In this document: piece after piece, positions 20,349 to 31,003 of the stretch
How positions within the stretch are numbered: position 1 is the stretch's first letter
Layout of the letters: the number at the start of each line of letters is the position of its first letter
Source of the DNA: Actinomycetospora cinnamomea
Lineage (GTDB): Bacteria; Actinomycetota; Actinomycetes; Mycobacteriales; Pseudonocardiaceae
Assembly (NCBI RefSeq): GCF_003096675.1
Contig: NZ_QEKW01000016.1
Coordinates: 1-64,000 of the forward strand
Direction: 5' to 3'
Length of the DNA: 64,000 nt
Notes under the pieces: model-generated
The model's database searches: none
Told to the model about the DNA's origin: nothing
The model's input: only the letters and a program-made list of their open reading frames with translations
Translations under genes and position numbers: made by a program

Positions 20349-21346
20349 CGTCTCGTGAGTGCTTGTCCGTCCTGGGGCACGGACAAGCACTCACAGGTCG
20401 CCGTGGTCGTCCGCAGCAGGAGGCCGCGTCGTCGCAGGATGGCGGTGACCATCGCCGCCGTCCGGCAGGGCGTGCCGGTGACCTCCTCCCATCCGAACGT
20501 CAGCCGGGCACGGCCCTCCAGCTCGGCCGCGTTGTCGCGGGCGCGATCGACGAACGCGGAGGCCCGGTCGGAGTGCCAGCGCCATCCGTCGAGCCGGACC
20601 GTGACGGGGCCCTCCGGCGTCTCGTACTCGCAGTCCTCGTACCGCGTGCTCCCGCCGACCCGCACGGCCGCCTGGCGGCGAGCCCGGGGCAGCCCGTGCG
20701 CGTCCTCGACGTCCACGGTGTAACGCGACTCCAGCGCCGAGGAGACCCCCTCGGCCAGCAACCGCGCCGCGTCCTTCAGCGGCTTTCGGTAGCGCCGGGG
20801 TCGGCGCAGTTCCATCACCGTCAGCAGCTGCCGCGCCGAGACCTTCATGCCGAGCGCGGCGTGGAGCATCGTCCGCATGGCCGTCCGCGGGTCCGACGCC
20901 GCCACGGCGAGGTCGAGGCAGGTGTCGGGACGCGAGACGGTCGGGAGATCGGACCGGTCGACGACCAGATGAGCGAAGGCGCGGGAGCGGTGCAGGGCGA
21001 CGTCGTCCCGGTCGTGGGCCGAGCTGCCGTAGGGGACGACGACGTGCACACGACCGTCACCGGGAACGCTCAAGCCGTGGCGGGCGGCTGCGGTGGCGTG
21101 GCTCAGGGCGGCGCTCGGGCCGGTGCACAGCAGCGCGGCGCGCTGTCGTTGGCGTTCGGTCGGCGCGCCCGTGGTCGTCAGATAGACCTTGCGATGCAGG
21201 CGCAGCATGCGTCGCGCCGTCAGCTGCGCCTCGATCCACTCGTCGGTGTAGCCGGCCGCCAGGATCTGGGCGCGTGTCAGCAGGTCGTCCTGCGTCCGCG
21301 CGGTGCGGCGCAGGGCCAGTTCGTCTCTCATGTCCCGACCGTCCAT
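20345..21346 (-). CDS. AbiEi-like N-domain plus DUF559 (Vsr-like) protein
   Basis: 333 aa from ATG 21346 (ATG 21331 also possible). Residues ~10-60 ([33 protein letters not shown]) form the AbiEi-type wHTH. The middle part is variable. The end ([25 protein letters not shown] then FGWEEV) matches the Vsr/PD-(D/E)XK-like DUF559 fold, but the usual ExD acid appears as Arg (V-R-L-D-G), so nuclease activity is doubtful. Such proteins are frequent, often multicopy, in actinobacteria; a toxin-antitoxin role is unproven and no partner gene is adjacent. The last ~17 codons run through the 40-bp palindrome at 20355. Confidence 0.75.
20355..20394. repeat. 40-bp palindrome family, copy A
   Basis: GTGAGTGCTTGTCCGT (20355-20370) pairs perfectly with 20379-20394 over 16 bp. 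The copy lies 6 bases after the nitroreductase stop and inside the C-terminal coding end of the DUF559 gene. It may serve as a bidirectional terminator. The same 40-bp sequence recurs at 21459, 24057 and 27789. Confidence 0.9.
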
Positions 21347-21458
21347 CACCCGTGCTGACCAGCGGTAACAGTCGGCCCGGCCCTGTGGACGCATTCGGCC
21401 GATGGGGACGGAACAGCGGTCGGGGACTCGGTGCGGCAGGCTGGGGCTGGGCGCGGGT

Positions 21459-21498
21459 GTGAGTGCTTCTCCGTGCCCCGACACGGGCAAGCACGCAC
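21459..21498. repeat. 40-bp palindrome family, copy B (degenerate)
   Basis: The left arm GTGAGTGCTTCTCCGTG and the right arm ending GGCAAGCACGCAC pair with several mismatches. It lies between the divergent DUF559 and aldehyde dehydrogenase genes, so unlike the other copies it cannot be a gene-end terminator. It ends 17 bases before the ALDH start. Confidence 0.85.
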
Positions 21499-24040: not shown

Positions 24041-24056
24041 CGACCCGCCGCCAGGT

Positions 24057-24096
24057 GTGAGTGCTCGTCCGTGCCCTGGCACGGGCAAGCACTCAC
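24057..24096. repeat. 40-bp palindrome family, copy C
   Basis: GTGAGTGCTCGTCCGTGCC pairs with the right arm with two G-T-type changes. It lies 16 bases after the acyltransferase stop and contains the TGA stop of the convergent S9 peptidase (24093-24095), so it is well placed to terminate both transcripts. Confidence 0.9.
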
Positions 24097-25937
24097 GAGC
24101 CCGAAGGGCAAAGGTGCGTCTCCAGCCAGTCGGTGCACTCGTGGATGAAGCGCACGCGGTTCTCGGTGCGCTGGATCTCGTGGCCCTCGTCGTCGAAGAG
24201 CAGGTACTTCAGCGGCACGCCCGCGGCCTTCGCGCCGTGGACGGCGAGCTCGGCCTCGTGCACCGGCACGTTGGTGTCCCAGCGCCCGTGCACGACGAGC
24301 AGGGGCGCGCGGAGGTGCTCCATGCGGTGCACGGGGGAGAGCTCGCGCAGCAGGTTGCGGTCGTGGATCGGGTGCCCGTACTCGCCGACCGCGGCATCGG
24401 CGATCCACGGCTCGGTGCGGGCGAAGAAGGTCTCGAAGTCGGCCATGCCGCACACGTCGATGCCGACCGCGAAGAGCTCGGGGTGGTTGACGAGCGCGGC
24501 CAGGGTCAGGTAGCCGCCGTAGGAGCGGCCCATGACGCCGACGCGGTCGCGGTCGGCGACCCCGGTGCGGACGAGGTGCTCCGCGCAGGTGGCGACGTCG
24601 CGGATCGCCGCGAAGCGGCCCGCGCCGTTGTCGGCGTTGACGAACGAGCGGCCGAACCCCGAGGACCCGCGGACGTTCGCGGCGTAGACGGCGATTCCGC
24701 GGGCGAGCAGGTGCTGGTAGAGCGGGGTGAAGACCGGGCGCTCCTGGGCCTCCGGGCCCCCGTGCAGGTAGATCACGGTCGGCAGCGGGCCCGCCTGCCC
24801 GCGTGGGCGGTACAGCCAGCCGGGCAGGCGCAGCCCGTCGGGCGTGGTGACGACCTCGAGCGACGGGTGCACGAGCTGGCCGGGCGACCAGGCCGGCTCC
24901 TCCTGCGGGCAGATCAGCGCGGTGGTGTCCGACGACAGCTCGTGGCACCACACGGCGGCGGGCACCTCGGGTGACTGGATGCCCATGACCAGCGAGTCGC
25001 CGTCGTGGCTGAACACGGCGCTGGTGACGACGTCGCCGGGTGGGGCGTAGGGCGTGGACTTGCCGGTGGCGATGTCGAGCAGGTCGACCTCACTGCGCCC
25101 CGCGACGTTCCACACGAGGGCGGCGAGCGCGCCGTCCTCGGTGAGCGCGAAGGCCTCGAGGTCGGCGTCCTCGCGCTCGGCGAGGACCTCGGGCGTCATC
25201 GGGCTCGCGTCGGTGGCGACGTCCACGGCCACCAGGGCCGTCCGCTCCCGCCCGCCGTCGGTGAGCAGCAGCATCCTCGTGCCGTCGGGCGTGAACCGGC
25301 CCGCGACGACGCTGGAGTCCCACGTGATGGCGACCGGGTGCTCCACCGCCCCGGGGGGCCCGCCGGGGCCGCGCAGCGAGTCGATCTCGTGCCAGCCCTC
25401 GGTGCCGTCGAGGTCGACGATGCCGACGTGACGCGATCCGCGGCGGCCGCGGCGCAGCAGCGCGCGCCGCCGGTCCCGGCTCACGTCGAGGATCTTCAGG
25501 GCGTGCCCCGAACCGAGCCGCTGGCGCTGCGACGAGTCGGCGTCGACCAGCCACGCGGTGGTGGTCTCGATGTCGGACTCGGTGATCGCGAGGACCGAAC
25601 CGGTGTGGGTGAAACGGTCGAGGCTCACCGCCCCGCGGTCGCCGTCGCCGACGCCGCGCACGGCCCGCAGGTCGCTGCCGTCGGGGCGGATGATCGAGAC
25701 GTTGGTGCGCTCCCCGCCGTCGGGGGCGGTCTCGAGGGCGAGCCAGGCCCCGTCCGGGGACCAGCGGACGGTGGACACGAGGTCCTCGCCCGTGTCGATC
25801 GACCACTCCTCGCCGGTGGCCCGGCGGTGCAGGCGGACCTGCGGCCGGCCGTCGCCGTCCCACACGAACGCGATCGCGGTCCCGTCGGGGGAGGGGCTGG
25901 GCGACCAGCAGCGCGTGGCGCTGATCCACTCGTCCAC
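24093..25937 (-). CDS. S9 family prolyl-oligopeptidase-type peptidase
   Basis: 614 aa. The N-terminal ~350 residues form a WD-like/beta-propeller domain (repeated SPDG, HDGD motifs). The C-terminal alpha/beta hydrolase has the nucleophile Ser in MGRSYGGYLTLAAL (~469), Asp in VHGRWDTNVPVHE and His in DDEGHEIQR. It has no signal peptide, so it is cytosolic. Relatives are acylaminoacyl- and dipeptidyl-peptidases. It starts 55 bases after asnB and is the last gene of the leftward ligase-asnB-peptidase set, so it may turn over the product peptide. Confidence 0.92.
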   Translation of the reverse strand: MDEWISATRCWSPSPSPDGTAIAFVWDGDGRPQVRLHRRATGEEWSIDTGEDLVSTVRWSPDGAWLALETAPDGGERTNVSIIRPDGSDLRAVRGVGDGDRGAVSLDRFTHTGSVLAITESDIETTTAWLVDADSSQRQRLGSGHALKILDVSRDRRRALLRRGRRGSRHVGIVDLDGTEGWHEIDSLRGPGGPPGAVEHPVAITWDSSVVAGRFTPDGTRMLLLTDGGRERTALVAVDVATDASPMTPEVLAEREDADLEAFALTEDGALAALVWNVAGRSEVDLLDIATGKSTPYAPPGDVVTSAVFSHDGDSLVMGIQSPEVPAAVWCHELSSDTTALICPQEEPAWSPGQLVHPSLEVVTTPDGLRLPGWLYRPRGQAGPLPTVIYLHGGPEAQERPVFTPLYQHLLARGIAVYAANVRGSSGFGRSFVNADNGAGRFAAIRDVATCAEHLVRTGVADRDRVGVMGRSYGGYLTLAALVNHPELFAVGIDVCGMADFETFFARTEPWIADAAVGEYGHPIHDRNLLRELSPVHRMEHLRAPLLVVHGRWDTNVPVHEAELAVHGAKAAGVPLKYLLFDDEGHEIQRTENRVRFIHECTDWLETHLCPSGS

Positions 25938-25992
25938 CGGGCGGGGCCTCCTCGGGTTCGGGCGACGCAGGCCAGTACCCCGGAACGGTACG

Positions 25993-27768
25993 TCAGGTGA
26001 TGCCGTGTGCCTGCAGCCACATCTCGAGCAGGGCCACCTGCCAGAGGGCGTTGGCGCCGAGGTTGGTCCGGCCCGAATTGGGGTCGTCGAGCATCTTCTC
26101 CACCGCGTCGGCGCGGAAGAGCCCGCGCGAGCGGGCCGCCGGGTCGGTGAGGGCCGCGCGGACCCGCTCGAGCACCGGCCCCGAGAGCTGGCGGATCGCC
26201 GGGACGGGGAAGTAGCTCTTCCTCCGGTCGATGATCTCGTCGGGCAGCACCCCGCGCGCCGCGGCCTTGAGCACGCCCTTGCCGCCGTCGGCGAGCTTGT
26301 ACTCCGGCGGGCAGGCTCCCATCGTCTCGACGAACTCGTGGTCGAGGAACGGGACGCGCGCCTCGAGGCCCCACGCCATGGTCATGTTGTCGACGCGCTT
26401 CACCGGGTCGTCGACCAGCATGATCGTGGTGTCGAGGCGCAGCGCGGCGTCGACGGCGGAGTCCGCGCCCGGGCGGGCGAAGTGCTCGGCGACGAACGCG
26501 CGGCTGACGTCGGAGTCGACGAGCGCGCCCGGCGCCAGCAGCTCCGCGACCTCGGCGTGCGGGCGGTCGAAGAACGACTTCTGGTAGGCCTCGACGGCGT
26601 CGGCGCGGGGCACGCCGGCCAGCGGCGGGTACCAGTCGTAGCCGCCGAGGATCTCGTCGGCGCCCTGTCCGGACTGCACGACCTTGATCGACTTCGAGAC
26701 CTCGCGGGACAGCAGGTAGAAGGCGACGACGTCGTGGCTGACCATCGGCTCGGCCATCGCCGCGACGGCGCCCTCGAGAGCGTCGTCGGTCTCGTGCTTC
26801 GCCACCGTGAACTTGACGTGGTCGGTGCCGTAGGTCTGCGCGACGAGGTCGGAGTAGTCGAACTCGTCGCCGGCCTCACCCGCCTCGGACTCGAAGCCGA
26901 TCGAGAAGGTCTTGAGGTCCTTCTGTCCCATCTCGGCGAGCAGGGCCACGACGATCGACGAGTCGATGCCGCCGGAGAGCAGCACGCCCACCGGGACGTC
27001 GGCGACCATGCGCCGCTCGACGGCGGTGCGCAGCGAGCTCAGCGCGGTCTCCGCCCACTCCTCGGCCGAGCGCTCCCGGTCGCGGACGAACGAGGGCTCC
27101 CAGTAGGTCCAGTCGTCGGTGCCGCCGTCGGGCGAGACGGTGCGGACCGTGGCCGGCGGCAGCTTGCGCACGCCCTGCAGGATCGTCCGCGGCGCGGGCA
27201 CCACGGAGTGGAAGCTCATGTAGTGGTGCAGGGAGACGCGGTCGACGTCGGTGTTGACCCCGCCGCCCGCGAGCAGGGCGGGCAGCGACGACGCGAAGCG
27301 CACCGCGCCCGGCACATGCGCGACGTAGAGCGGCTTGATCCCCAGACGGTCGCGGCCGAGGACCAGCTCGCCGGTGCGCCGGTCGGCGACCGCGAACGCG
27401 AACATGCCCTTGAAGTGCTCGACGCACGCCTTGCCCCACCGGTGGATGGCCTTGAGCACCACCTCGGTGTCCGAGGTCGAGAAGAACCGGTAGCCCTCGG
27501 CGTGCAGCTGCTCGCGGAGCTCCTTGTAGTTGTAGATGATCCCGTTGAAGACCGCGGTCAGGCCGAGCTCGCTGTCGACCATCGGCTGGGCGCCGGTCTC
27601 CGACAGGTCGATGATCTTCAGGCGCTGGTGGGCGAGCGCCAGCGGGCCGTGGCCGACGATGCCCCAGCCGTCGGGTCCGCGCGGCTCGAGCACGCGGGCC
27701 ATGTCGAGCACCGTCGCCGCCTCGGCCGCCCGGCCGTCGAATCGGAACTCACCGGCGATGCCGCACAC
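25993..27768 (-). CDS. Asparagine-synthase-type amidotransferase, N-acetylglutaminylglutamine amidotransferase-like
   Basis: 591 aa. GTG 27768 puts the nucleophile Cys at position 2 (M-CGIAGEFRFDG) and has GGAGG upstream. The class-II glutaminase domain (RGPDG, HQRLKIIDLSETGAQPM) is followed by a PP-loop synthetase domain with VLLSGGIDSSIV (~260) and SGQGADEILGGYDWYP. Segments such as LHHYMSFHSVVPAPRTILQGVRKLPPATV are characteristic of the NAGGN amidotransferase subgroup rather than of general AsnB. That enzyme amidates the terminal carboxylate of an acetylated Gln-Gln dipeptide osmolyte. The upstream ligase fusion supports amidation of a small peptide here. Confidence 0.88.
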   Translation of the reverse strand: MCGIAGEFRFDGRAAEAATVLDMARVLEPRGPDGWGIVGHGPLALAHQRLKIIDLSETGAQPMVDSELGLTAVFNGIIYNYKELREQLHAEGYRFFSTSDTEVVLKAIHRWGKACVEHFKGMFAFAVADRRTGELVLGRDRLGIKPLYVAHVPGAVRFASSLPALLAGGGVNTDVDRVSLHHYMSFHSVVPAPRTILQGVRKLPPATVRTVSPDGGTDDWTYWEPSFVRDRERSAEEWAETALSSLRTAVERRMVADVPVGVLLSGGIDSSIVVALLAEMGQKDLKTFSIGFESEAGEAGDEFDYSDLVAQTYGTDHVKFTVAKHETDDALEGAVAAMAEPMVSHDVVAFYLLSREVSKSIKVVQSGQGADEILGGYDWYPPLAGVPRADAVEAYQKSFFDRPHAEVAELLAPGALVDSDVSRAFVAEHFARPGADSAVDAALRLDTTIMLVDDPVKRVDNMTMAWGLEARVPFLDHEFVETMGACPPEYKLADGGKGVLKAAARGVLPDEIIDRRKSYFPVPAIRQLSGPVLERVRAALTDPAARSRGLFRADAVEKMLDDPNSGRTNLGANALWQVALLEMWLQAHGIT

Positions 27769-27788
27769 TTTGCCTCCTCCGTCGGCGT

Positions 27789-27828
27789 GTGAGTGCCTTT
27801 CCGTGCTCTGGCACGGACAAGCACTCAC
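27789..27828. repeat. 40-bp palindrome family, copy D
   Basis: GTGAGTGCCTTTCCGTGC (27789-27806) pairs with 27811-27828 across the loop TCTG, with two mismatches. It sits between two co-directional genes, 26 bases downstream of the ligase-fusion stop and 20 upstream of the asnB start, so it could act as an attenuator or RNA-stability element inside the operon. Confidence 0.9.
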
Positions 27829-27854
27829 AGTTCACGCAGCACTCCGATAGGGCG

Positions 27855-30437
27855 TCAGCGCAAAATCCAGGTGTCCTTCGAGCCCCCGCCGCGCGAGGAG
27901 TTGACCACGAGGGAGTCGGCCGGCGCGACCCGGGTGAGCGGGGTCGGGAGCACCGTCGGGGTGGGCGCGAGCACGACGAACGCACGCAGGTCGACCACCC
28001 GGGGCTCCAGCACCGCGCCCGTGAACGTGGGGTGGGTGGAGATCCGGACGGTCTCCTGGGCCACGAACCCGGCGGGATGCGCGCGGACCTCCGCCGCGAC
28101 CTGCTCGAGCTCCTCGGCGCTCGCGTACGGGCCGACCACGATGCCCTGCCCGCCGTAGCCGTCGACGGGCTTGATCACCAGCTCCTCGAGGTGGTCGAGG
28201 ACGTGCTCGCGCTGGTCGGGGTCGGCGCACGACCAGGTCGGGACAGCCGCGAGCGTCGCCTTCTCGCCGAAGTAGAACTCGGTCAGCGCGGAGATGAAGG
28301 GGTAGACGCCCTTGTCGTCGACCAGCCCGTTGCCCGGCGCGTTGGACAGGGTGAGGCGCCCGGTCCGCACGGCCTCCTGGACCGGCCCACCGAGCCGCAC
28401 GCCCTCGGCGTCCCGGGCGTCGAAGAGCACCTCCTCGTCGATGCGCCGGTAGAGCACGTCGACGGGCCGCCCGTTCTCCGCGATCGTGATCATGCCGGCC
28501 GCCGCCCGCAGCTCGCCGGGCGTGAGCAGCGGGACGCCCATCTCCTCGGCGAGCATGCGGTGCTCGAAGTAGGCGGCGTCGCTGGGCCCCTCGGTGACGA
28601 CGGCCAGGACGGGGTCGTGGCCCGCGGCGGGCGGCGCGCTCGCCAGCAGCGCCTCGCGCAGCATCGCCGGGCCCTCGTCGGCGTCGAGCACCCCGTGGGG
28701 CGCCTGCAGCTCGGGCAGCACGCTGCGCACCACCCGCCGGTCGGCCAGCGCGTAGCCGATGCCCGACGGGATGCGCAGGTTGTCCTCGAGGACCTTCCAC
28801 TCGCCCTCGCCGTCGCACACCAGATCCAGACCGCTGACCAGCGCGCGCACGGCACCGGGATGCAGGTTCATCGCCGCCTCGTGCGGCTGGGGGATCCACC
28901 GCAGCGCCGCCTCGGGCAGGACGCCGTCGTGCAGGCAGGCGCGCTCGCCGTGCAGGTCCTGCAGCAGCGCCTCGCAGGTGCGGGCGCGCTGCACGAGACC
29001 CGCGGTCAGCGTCTCCCACTCGCCGGGCGTGATCAGGCGCGGCACGAGGTCGAGGGGGAACAGGCGCTCGGCGTCGTCGTCCTGCGGGAAGAGCATGCCG
29101 CGGGCGCGCTGCTCGGCGTCGCGGCTCTTCTCGTGCACGAGCAGCCCCGAGGGCCCGATCCGCTCGAGGGTCGAGACGAGCCAGGAGTACGCCGGGCGGA
29201 CGGTGCCGTCCTCGGCGACGGCCTCGTCGTACGCGGCGGGCGCGTAGTCGGCGAGCAGGACCGGGGCGACGGTCTCGGAGACGGGCGCGTCGACGGGGGA
29301 GTCGGGGGCCCCGCGGGTCTCGGCGACGAGCATGTCGACGACGGCCTCGAGGGTCCCGCTGCGGTTGGCGCGCTGGCGCTGGCGTGCCGCCGAGCTGCCG
29401 CGCGCGAGGGCGTCGACGGCGAGCTCGTGCACGACGTCGCGGTCGCCGGCCTCGTCCAGCTCGTCGTCGAGGTGCTCGAGCAGCAGGCGCACCGCCCGCG
29501 ACGGCGGGACGAGCTCGCGCCCGCGCACGTCGACGAGGTCGCCCTCGAGACCCGAGCGCGCGGCGCGCCAGCTCGCCGCGCGCAGGAGCTCGGGGCGGTA
29601 CCGGGGGCTGGGGCGGCCCGCGAGGTGGGCGCGCACGCCGTGGCGCACCAGCGCCCGGGCCAGGCCCGCGACGAGCACGACGCCGTCGACGCTGGGCCCG
29701 GCGTCGCAGATACGCAGCTCGACCGTGTCCTGGTGCGCCGAGGGCCGCATGTCGAAATAGACCATGCCGGGGTCGGACATCGTCCCGGAGGCGAGCAGGT
29801 CGGCGATGAGCGCGTCGTAGTCGGCCGCGTCGCGCAGGGGCGCGGGCGGCCCCGCGGTGGGCCAGCGGTGCCACGCGAGGGTGCGCGAGCTCGCGTACCC
29901 GGTGTCCTGTCCCTTCCAGAACGGCGAGCTGGCCGAGAGCGCGAGGAGCACCGGCAGCCAGGGCGCGCTGTGCTGCATCACCGTGATCGCCGCGTCGCGG
30001 TCGGGGACGTCGACGTGCACCTGCGTGCCGCAGATCTGCTGCTCGAAGGCGAGCACCTGGTACTCGTCGCGCATCCGCTCGTAGCGCGGCGAGGCGGTGA
30101 TGCCCTCGGCCGAGCCGTCGATCAGCGGCACGGTGCCCGCGCCGACCACGCCGAGCCCCCGGCCGTCGGCGATGTGGGCGAGCATCCCGCGCAGGCGCAC
30201 GAGCTCGGTGCGCAGGTCGGCGAGGTCGTGGGTGGGGCGCGAGTTGGTCTCGATGATCGAGGGCTTGAGCTCCGCGGCGAACGCGTCGCCGTCGAGGGCC
30301 TGCAGCTCGTCGAGCAGCTCCGGGACGCGCGGCACCGCCGACCGCGTCTCGAGATCGACGAGGTGGAACTCCTCCTCGACGCCCAGGACGACCTCGGGCG
30401 CGGGTGGCAGACGGCGGTCCGACGGTCGCGCTCCCAT
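27855..30437 (-). CDS. Carboxylate-amine ligase (GCS2/YbdK type) fused to circularly permuted ATP-grasp
   Basis: 860 aa. Residues ~15-370 are a glutamate-cysteine-ligase-2-like COOH-NH2 ligase (LGVEEEFHLVD at ~18, ELKPSIIETNSRP, QICGTQVHVDVPD, FDMRPSAHQDTVELRICDAGPS). After a linker, residues ~410-860 are a type-2 circularly permuted ATP-grasp (LVHEKSRDAEQRARGMLF, CDGEGEWKVLEDNLRIPSGI, APGNGLVDDKGVYPFI, ELVIKPVDGYGGQGIVVGP at ~752). Both halves make ATP-dependent amide bonds, so one polypeptide could join two successive building blocks. Substrates are unknown. It is the first gene of a leftward set with asnB and the S9 peptidase; ATG 30437 is divergent from rpiB with 95 bases between. Confidence 0.85.
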   Translation of the reverse strand: MGARPSDRRLPPAPEVVLGVEEEFHLVDLETRSAVPRVPELLDELQALDGDAFAAELKPSIIETNSRPTHDLADLRTELVRLRGMLAHIADGRGLGVVGAGTVPLIDGSAEGITASPRYERMRDEYQVLAFEQQICGTQVHVDVPDRDAAITVMQHSAPWLPVLLALSASSPFWKGQDTGYASSRTLAWHRWPTAGPPAPLRDAADYDALIADLLASGTMSDPGMVYFDMRPSAHQDTVELRICDAGPSVDGVVLVAGLARALVRHGVRAHLAGRPSPRYRPELLRAASWRAARSGLEGDLVDVRGRELVPPSRAVRLLLEHLDDELDEAGDRDVVHELAVDALARGSSAARQRQRANRSGTLEAVVDMLVAETRGAPDSPVDAPVSETVAPVLLADYAPAAYDEAVAEDGTVRPAYSWLVSTLERIGPSGLLVHEKSRDAEQRARGMLFPQDDDAERLFPLDLVPRLITPGEWETLTAGLVQRARTCEALLQDLHGERACLHDGVLPEAALRWIPQPHEAAMNLHPGAVRALVSGLDLVCDGEGEWKVLEDNLRIPSGIGYALADRRVVRSVLPELQAPHGVLDADEGPAMLREALLASAPPAAGHDPVLAVVTEGPSDAAYFEHRMLAEEMGVPLLTPGELRAAAGMITIAENGRPVDVLYRRIDEEVLFDARDAEGVRLGGPVQEAVRTGRLTLSNAPGNGLVDDKGVYPFISALTEFYFGEKATLAAVPTWSCADPDQREHVLDHLEELVIKPVDGYGGQGIVVGPYASAEELEQVAAEVRAHPAGFVAQETVRISTHPTFTGAVLEPRVVDLRAFVVLAPTPTVLPTPLTRVAPADSLVVNSSRGGGSKDTWILR

Positions 30438-30532
30438 GTGCGCAAACTACGAGTGGTGTGTCACGGGCGTGTTTCCGAGGTCCTTCCCACGGCCCGCGCG
30501 GCGGCCCGCGTCACACCTGCGAGACTGCGCGC

Positions 30533-31003
30533 GTGCGCGTCTTCCTCGGTTCGGACCACGCGGGGTTCGACCTCAAGGCCCATCTGCTGCGCGAGCTGGC
30601 GAAGGCCGGCCACGACGTCGTCGATGTCGGGCCCGTCGAGTACGACCCCGCGGACGACTACCCGCCGTTCTGCGTGGAGACCGGACGCCGGACCGTGGCC
30701 GCCGCGGGCAGCCTCGGCGTGGTGATCGGCGGGTCGGGCAACGGCGAGCAGATCGCGGCCAACAAGGTGCCCGGCTGCCGGGCCGCGCTGGCGTGGAGCG
30801 TCGAGACCGCGCAGCTCGCCCGGCGCCACAACGACGCGCAGGTCGTGTCCATCGGCGCCCGGATGCACACGGCGGAGGCCGCGACCGAGATCGTCACCGC
30901 GTTCCTCGCCGCGCCGTTCGAGGGCGGGCGTCACCAGCGCCGCATCGACATGCTCACCGAGTACGAGCGCACCGGCGAGCCGCCCGCGCTTCCCGAGGAC
31001 TGA
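30533..31003 (+). CDS. rpiB: Ribose-5-phosphate isomerase B
   Basis: 156 aa, LacAB/RpiB family. The motifs LGSDHAGFDLKAHL, PPFCVETGRRT, GVVIGGSGNGEQIAANKVPGCRAAL and HNDAQVVSIGARM are all present; the Glu of GSGNGEQ is the catalytic base used by mycobacterial RpiB. It interconverts ribose-5-phosphate and ribulose-5-phosphate. GTG 30533 is set by alignment to the family start. Syntenic with Rv2465c, followed 40 bases on by nei. Confidence 0.95.
   Translation: MRVFLGSDHAGFDLKAHLLRELAKAGHDVVDVGPVEYDPADDYPPFCVETGRRTVAAAGSLGVVIGGSGNGEQIAANKVPGCRAALAWSVETAQLARRHNDAQVVSIGARMHTAEAATEIVTAFLAAPFEGGRHQRRIDMLTEYERTGEPPALPED

Follow-up and report, generated by a model that had tools for sequence, protein, structure and literature searches.

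The closest described counterpart of the locus considered here is the N-acetylglutaminylglutamine amide (NAGGN) system, which yields an amide-capped peptide employed in salt stress and in which asnO and ngg are accompanied by an M42 peptidase gene and whose proteins are recognized by the models TIGR03104 (AsnB), TIGR03103 (Ngg) and TIGR03106 (M42), as for example in Sinorhizobium meliloti (L119 in our set). Here, a gene cassette of Actinomycetospora cinnamomea was analyzed, which occupies positions 24093-30437 of the window, i.e., of the whole stretch of 64,000 nucleotides under study, from one contig of a 5.97 Mb Actinomycetospora assembly. The cassette shares with the NAGGN system the family of its AsnB-type amidotransferase as well as the combination of one peptide-synthesis protein and one peptidase within one small cluster, whereas in this genome a fusion of a GCS2 ligase with a circularly permuted (CP) ATP-grasp domain and an S9 peptidase stand in place of Ngg and the M42 peptidase. 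Since two defining features of NAGGN clusters are thus lacking, the locus should not be called a NAGGN cluster. We consider it rather probable that, with other enzymes, the cassette does what the NAGGN genes do, i.e., synthesizes a small peptide amide, caps it and recycles it, the product being a solute related to NAGGN and not NAGGN itself; in that case, it would offer a three-enzyme pathway to compatible solutes of a possibly new class.

The two halves of the fusion belong to the same families as the COG2308/CP_ATPgrasp_2 proteins (3n6x) and the YbdK/GCS2 ligases (1r8g), which are separate proteins elsewhere in genomes, whereas here they are fused and adjoin a NAGGN-type AsnB. NAGGN itself as well as asnO and ngg genes have been reported from Micromonospora provocatoris (PMC8146288), and NAGGN genes are counted as mainly core in Micromonospora (PMC12915310). 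The compounds named as solutes elsewhere include N-carbamoyl-glutamine amide as well as NAGGN (PMC7824335), so that a glutamine-amide end with varied N-terminal caps has a precedent. Possibly, the asnO-ngg cluster of Casuarina Frankia strains is a relative of the cassette: the paper describes an AsnO more than 60% identical to others, an 'Ngg' whose identity to known Ngg is below 15%, and, between asnO and ngg, a dipeptidase gene; it calls the product NAGGN and, in the passages considered, names neither a GCS2 nor a CP-ATP-grasp domain (PMC5563000). This gene order is closer to the AsnB-S9-ATP-grasp layout, which we found at L135, L136, L159 and L162, than to the order in the window. FRAAL1888, a glutamine amidotransferase tied to NAGGN, is given in another report as 2.2-fold up-regulated under polyethylene glycol, alongside an N-acyltransferase (PMC5768760); the Frankia literature was set aside as expression evidence for the cassette, as the loci of these strains were not matched. 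Among the matches listed in open-licence PMC (title or start of abstract), the fusion with AsnB and S9 was not described, and only the Frankia reports among them mention a possible relative. The work of Iyer and colleagues from 2009 on amidoligases may include such neighbourhoods.

Composition of the cassette in the window

Three leftward genes make up the cassette in the order fusion, AsnB and S9 peptidase, with gaps of 86 bp between fusion and AsnB and 55 bp between AsnB and S9:

27855..30437, minus strand: GCS2 - circularly permuted ATP-grasp type 2 fusion, 860 amino acids (PF04107 and PF14403)
25993..27768, minus strand: AsnB-type amidotransferase of the NAGGN (TIGR03104) family, 591 amino acids from the likely start (TIGR03104, ribosome-binding site, GTG start)
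24093..25937, minus strand: S9 (prolyl oligopeptidase family) peptidase, 614 amino acids (PF00326; nearest PDB structures are acylaminoacyl peptidases)
27787..27826, no strand: palindrome resembling repetitive extragenic palindromic (REP) elements, between the fusion stop and the AsnB start (missing here in 11 aligned relatives)

The fusion protein matched Pfam GCS2 at residues 18-297 (186.7 bits) and CP_ATPgrasp_2 at residues 466-838 (368.4 bits), and its closest PDB structures were 3n6x (residues 402-860, E 4.1e-92) and YbdK 1r8g (residues 55-340, E 1.1e-22). The motifs E-E-E-F, Q-V-H-V and T-V-E-x-R, chosen here as those of GCS2 ligases, are found at positions 21, 139 and 238, and looser versions of them were present in 104, 106 and 108 of 108 GCS2 segments from all layouts, some of these segments beginning inside the first motif. 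Likewise, EDN-PSG, K-x-V-x-G and SS-GGG-KD, chosen as the motifs of circularly permuted ATP-grasp type 2 enzymes, lie at 551, 756 and 846. In an alignment of 26 fusions, a subset of the 45 described below, E21-E23, Q139, H141, R231, E240 and R242 of the GCS2 half and E551, D552, N553, R555, K756, N846, K854 and D855 of the ATP-grasp half were invariant. The identity of the window fusion was 88-91% to nine of 16 Actinomycetospora records and 75-77% to the other seven.

The open reading frame (ORF) listed for AsnB spans 25993-27828 on the minus strand; translation probably begins at the GTG at 27768, right after GGAGGAGG, which gives the N-terminus M-C-G. The protein scored 923.5 bits against TIGR03104 (cut-off 570.1) over 589 of 589 model positions. 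It also exceeded the general asparagine synthase model TIGR01536 (426.9 vs. 267.1 bits), and the runner-up among the AsnB-like genes of this genome reached 278.5 bits, which is under the TIGR03104 cut-off. Comparison of 82 cassette-type with 37 Ngg-type AsnB sequences along their full chain detected 169 columns with the same residue in more than 97% of both, among them C2, R49, N75, G76, D100, S265-G266-G267 and D269-S270-S271, and only two columns separating the types at 85% each. Cys2 is taken here as the glutaminase residue and SGG-DSS as the synthetase motif. This conservation suggests that the C-terminal residue which AsnB amidates is probably of one kind in the two settings.

For the third protein, Peptidase_S9 (PF00326) was matched with 147 bits, with the motifs GRSYGG at 470, HGRWDTN at 550 and DEGHEI at 583, and the amino acyl peptidase 5l8s was its nearest PDB neighbour, with the acylamino-acid-releasing enzyme 1ve6 among the next. 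G-x-S-Y-G-G was present in 90 of 92 S9 matches, the misses being L097, a non-cassette S9, and L161, a cassette S9; the combined serine and histidine pattern was present in 31 of the 92, its histidine part having been drawn too narrow. The peptidase is probably cytosolic, because a PD40 propeller repeat (residues 12-34) begins almost at the N-terminus.

With regard to the classical NAGGN partners, the best TIGR03103 match in the Actinomycetospora genome of the window scored 35.5 bits (cut-off 569), so that a hidden Ngg was ruled out there, and the M42 model TIGR03106 gave no match in this genome at E <= 1e-3. The TIGR03103 cut-off was reached in none of the 45 full-fusion genomes of our genome collection; in 24 of them, matches of 150-184 bits covered the C-terminal part of the model only (positions about 236-527) and were located in frames of 914-1215 amino acids. 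In a second set of 59 genomes, of which 39 have the fusion and the other 20 a different AsnB layout, and which may overlap with the 45, Ngg was absent at E <= 1e-60 in 55 and above the cut-off in four. These four genomes carry a classical Ngg locus as well as the cassette, with Ngg adjoining a separate AsnB. These results agree with the original prediction in the coordinates of the three leftward genes, in the pairing of a GCS2-type ligase with a circularly permuted ATP-grasp in the first, in the NAGGN-amidotransferase subgroup of the second and in the S9 nature of the third. They also agree with the claims that the GNAT/ATP-grasp synthetase is replaced, Ngg being absent from the genome of the window and most cassette genomes, and that the M42 peptidase is replaced, for which the genome of the window was the one checked. 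The original interpretation as a whole is partly supported.

Recurrence, other layouts and phylogeny

Scanning the genome collection with the fusion as query yielded 46 loci, of which 45 showed the full fusion followed by AsnB and S9 on the same strand, and L087 gave ATP-grasp matches only; in L055, the ATP-grasp match was in two overlapping pieces, perhaps due to a frameshift. Sixteen of the 45 belong to Actinomycetospora, the others to Actinoplanes and relatives, Streptosporangium and two metagenome-assembled genomes (Pseudonocardiales, Acidimicrobiales). The order-wide sample comprised 397 genomes; a TIGR03104 AsnB was present in 204 of them and the full fusion (E <= 1e-160) in 40, inspected as the window plus 39 fetched stretches. 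Ngg was lacking in 36 of these 40. AsnB was located directly downstream of the fusion in 34 of the 40, including L185 with only the first part of AsnB before the contig end, and S9 was present as well in 31 of the 34. The expectation that related genomes have the fusion next to AsnB thus held in 45 of 45 and 34 of 40 cases; as this AsnB also exceeds the TIGR03104 cut-off, the cassette reading withstood both refuting conditions named with the original prediction. Moreover, where a locus contained both ATP-grasp and AsnB, the former was less than 400 bp upstream of the latter in 80 of 86 cases.

Neighbours of 38 representative loci were clustered, with families judged by eye and ORFs called by a composition rule, so that small or variable genes could escape. 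Only the GCS2/fusion, AsnB and S9 families recurred in more than five of 24 lineage groups; no further family, be it a GNAT, a transporter or a regulator, did so, and a likely membrane transporter recurred in five Micromonosporaceae groups.

The same amidotransferase was found with other partners. In a phylum-wide sample, 31 of 296 genomes had a TIGR03104 AsnB, and the 30 fetched loci and the window were classified as 21 Ngg loci (L116 among them showing only the ATP-grasp half of Ngg), four GCS2-AsnB-S9 loci, which are Streptomyces-like judged by their likeness to the Streptomyces fungicidicus locus, two fusion-AsnB-S9 loci including the window, three loci with a separate ATP-grasp and one with a distant GCS2. 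Among 137 TIGR03104 loci, a set enriched for fusions as 45 came from the fusion query, 37 had Ngg, and none of these 37 had GCS2, ATP-grasp or S9 as well (within 5.5 kb, 60 bits); an S9-like match in L097, at 48 bits, was under that line. GCS2 with AsnB and S9 was found in Streptomyces, Nonomuraea and Embleya, the records of Embleya and S. fungicidicus, both plasmids, giving GCS2 matches only.

In a tree of 85 AsnB rows, rooted through two very long outgroup branches, the Ngg-type rows fell into one group (SH-like approximate likelihood ratio test, SH-aLRT, 99), which also took in the DUF1028 type, the opposite-strand GCS2 type, L117 and two partnerless rows; all fusion, GCS2-S9 and ATP-grasp-S9 rows were outside this group. 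A tree of 61 GCS2 rows, in which row L077_B_16554 is a second unfused GCS2 labelled as fusion type, placed the fusion and Streptomyces-type GCS2 apart from the other GCS2 of the sampled genomes, the support not being strong (SH-aLRT 86). The opposite-strand GCS2 type fell among the latter, so that more than one recruitment of GCS2 is possible. With its GCS2-alone layout, Nonomuraea was sister to the Streptosporangium fusions (100) and apart from the Streptomyces type, which suggests at least two losses or gains of the ATP-grasp half.

Several arrangements were observed besides. At L099, L100 and L104, AsnB is accompanied by a separate ATP-grasp gene, whose match in L100 is split in two pieces; GCS2-like genes of their own are also present at L100 and L104, and a gene for a DUF1028 protein lies downstream in L099 and L104 and in the vicinity in L100. 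In one genus, by inference in the Micromonosporaceae, many genomes have two AsnB loci, one of which adjoins GCS2 in some. At L164-L173, L175 and L176, a NAGGN-type AsnB, in several genomes a second copy, lies beside a GCS2 of another lineage than that of the cassette, mostly on the opposite strand. In Streptosporangium, a second unfused GCS2 is located downstream of the cassette (L077:16554-17639 and L076:16142-17227). At L179, genes that by eye resemble a sugar isomerase and an ROK regulator lie on the opposite strand between fusion and S9.

Possible product and competing explanations

GCS2 enzymes form gamma-glutamyl amides, and ATP-grasp enzymes form amides via acyl phosphates. Following this family chemistry, we propose that the GCS2 half would use ATP to activate glutamate at its side-chain carboxylate and couple this group to an amine, so that a gamma-glutamyl peptide, e.g., gamma-Glu-Gln, is formed, and that the CP-ATP-grasp half would subsequently add a second amide bond, to a further residue or an N-terminal acyl group; loci with a single one of these ligases would yield a dipeptide. 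AsnB, judging from its family membership and conserved residues, would then move ammonia from glutamine to the C-terminal alpha-carboxylate, and the uncharged ...-Gln-NH2 end, as in NAGGN, is proposed because its conservation implies the same kind of C-terminal residue. In the last step, the S9 peptidase might cut the N-blocked peptide in the cytosol once it is unneeded, taking the role of the M42 peptidase of NAGGN clusters, a role that perhaps falls to the DUF1028 protein in one other lineage. As GCS2 stands in place of the GNAT and CP-ATP-grasp in place of the ATP-grasp half of Ngg, the simplest assumption is that a gamma-glutamyl cap replaces the acetyl cap. The non-acetylated gamma-glutamyl peptide amide of the original prediction, serving as osmolyte or signal, is a plausible product, a solute role being suggested by the family to which AsnB belongs.

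Several observations weigh against this proposal. No expression data were found for Actinomycetospora, and no osmotic regulator was seen among the neighbours read by eye. Six of the 40 fusion loci of the order sample lack an adjacent AsnB: L179, L181 and L182 have the fusion with S9, and L180, L186 and L195 have neither AsnB nor S9 in the fetched stretch, that of L180 reaching the contig end. The amide cap is therefore not obligatory; furthermore, the fusion-AsnB loci L142 and L152 have no S9. The pairing of two ligase domains in the original prediction holds for the window and the other fusions and fails for the Streptomyces-type cassettes, where a hidden ATP-grasp was sought and none was detected in four of four genomes (E <= 1e-10), which shows that the two domains are not always together. 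Conversely, five loci have ATP-grasp and AsnB with no adjacent GCS2, and in two of these the ATP-grasp lacks the EDN-PSG pattern. Finally, a more careful AsnB tree of 58 rows, with the outgroup and L117 left out, recovered the same split with SH-aLRT 98 and a bootstrap of just 52, so the separation of cassette-type from Ngg-type AsnB is favoured and not proven.

Alternatively, the cassette might make NAGGN itself by another route, which we regard as unlikely: N-acetylglutamate or N-acetylglutamine from arginine metabolism would be ligated to glutamine by the fusion and capped by AsnB, with no GNAT needed. This would be in line with the cassette AsnB being nearly unchanged from the Ngg type at conserved columns, with the closeness of S9 to acylaminoacyl peptidases, whose substrates are N-acylated peptides, and with the finding that Ngg and the cassette are usually alternatives in the order sample. 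However, the four genomes with both loci would be redundant if there were one product, which suggests a different one, and GCS2 enzymes link glutamate through its gamma-carboxylate, whereas the peptide bond of NAGGN is an alpha bond. Less likely still is a signalling or secondary-metabolite peptide amide, or protein tagging, like the CP-ATP-grasp systems reportedly predicted by Iyer and colleagues in 2009 to act alongside peptidases. CP_ATPgrasp_2 is indeed the domain of such systems and the closest structure, 3n6x, is of that family; the absence of a further gene family in more than five of the 24 lineage groups as read by eye, an AsnB from an osmolyte family and a peptidase N-terminus with no visible export signal all speak against it. 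That AsnB is an ordinary asparagine synthetase and the genes are neighbours by descent only is highly improbable: despite its score above the TIGR01536 cut-off, its TIGR03104 score is more than twice as high, and in the 24 Actinomycetota lineage groups compared the neighbourhood mostly comprises all three genes, so that chance neighbourhood of an ordinary asparagine synthetase was set aside.

The chances seem about even that Actinomycetota possess a second, unrecognized family of amide-capped peptide solutes, i.e., amides of gamma-glutamyl peptides for which GCS2 and/or CP-ATP-grasp ligases act together with a NAGGN-type AsnB, and which are currently annotated as NAGGN via AsnB alone. A TIGR03104 AsnB is given the name 'N-acetylglutaminylglutamine amidotransferase' regardless of its partners; in the S. 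fungicidicus plasmid record, for instance, an AsnB so named lies between a glutamate--cysteine ligase and a hydrolase, and no Ngg is present in the 17.8 kb shown. Since ten of the 31 AsnB loci of the phylum sample have non-Ngg partners, some NAGGN predictions in actinobacteria may name the wrong molecule. The cassette also shows that a single type of capping enzyme occurs together with several kinds of synthetase and with hydrolases that are not related to one another (M42, S9 and the functionally uncharacterized DUF1028 protein).

Surroundings of the cassette

On the other side of the cassette, a divergent rpiB gene was identified (listed ORF 30404-31003, TIGR02133 above cut-off). The REP-like palindrome of about 36 bp has four copies in the window (20352-20392, 21458-21496, 24055-24094 and 27787-27826) and 22 sites in the genome at up to three mismatches, with the diverged copy at 21458 not counted, as compared to none for the reversed control. 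At the site between fusion and AsnB, it was present in none of 11 aligned Actinomycetospora relatives, and this copy is not needed for the cassette. Among the stretches of 16 relatives, similar palindromic elements were found in L043 only, at other places, and the element looks mobile.

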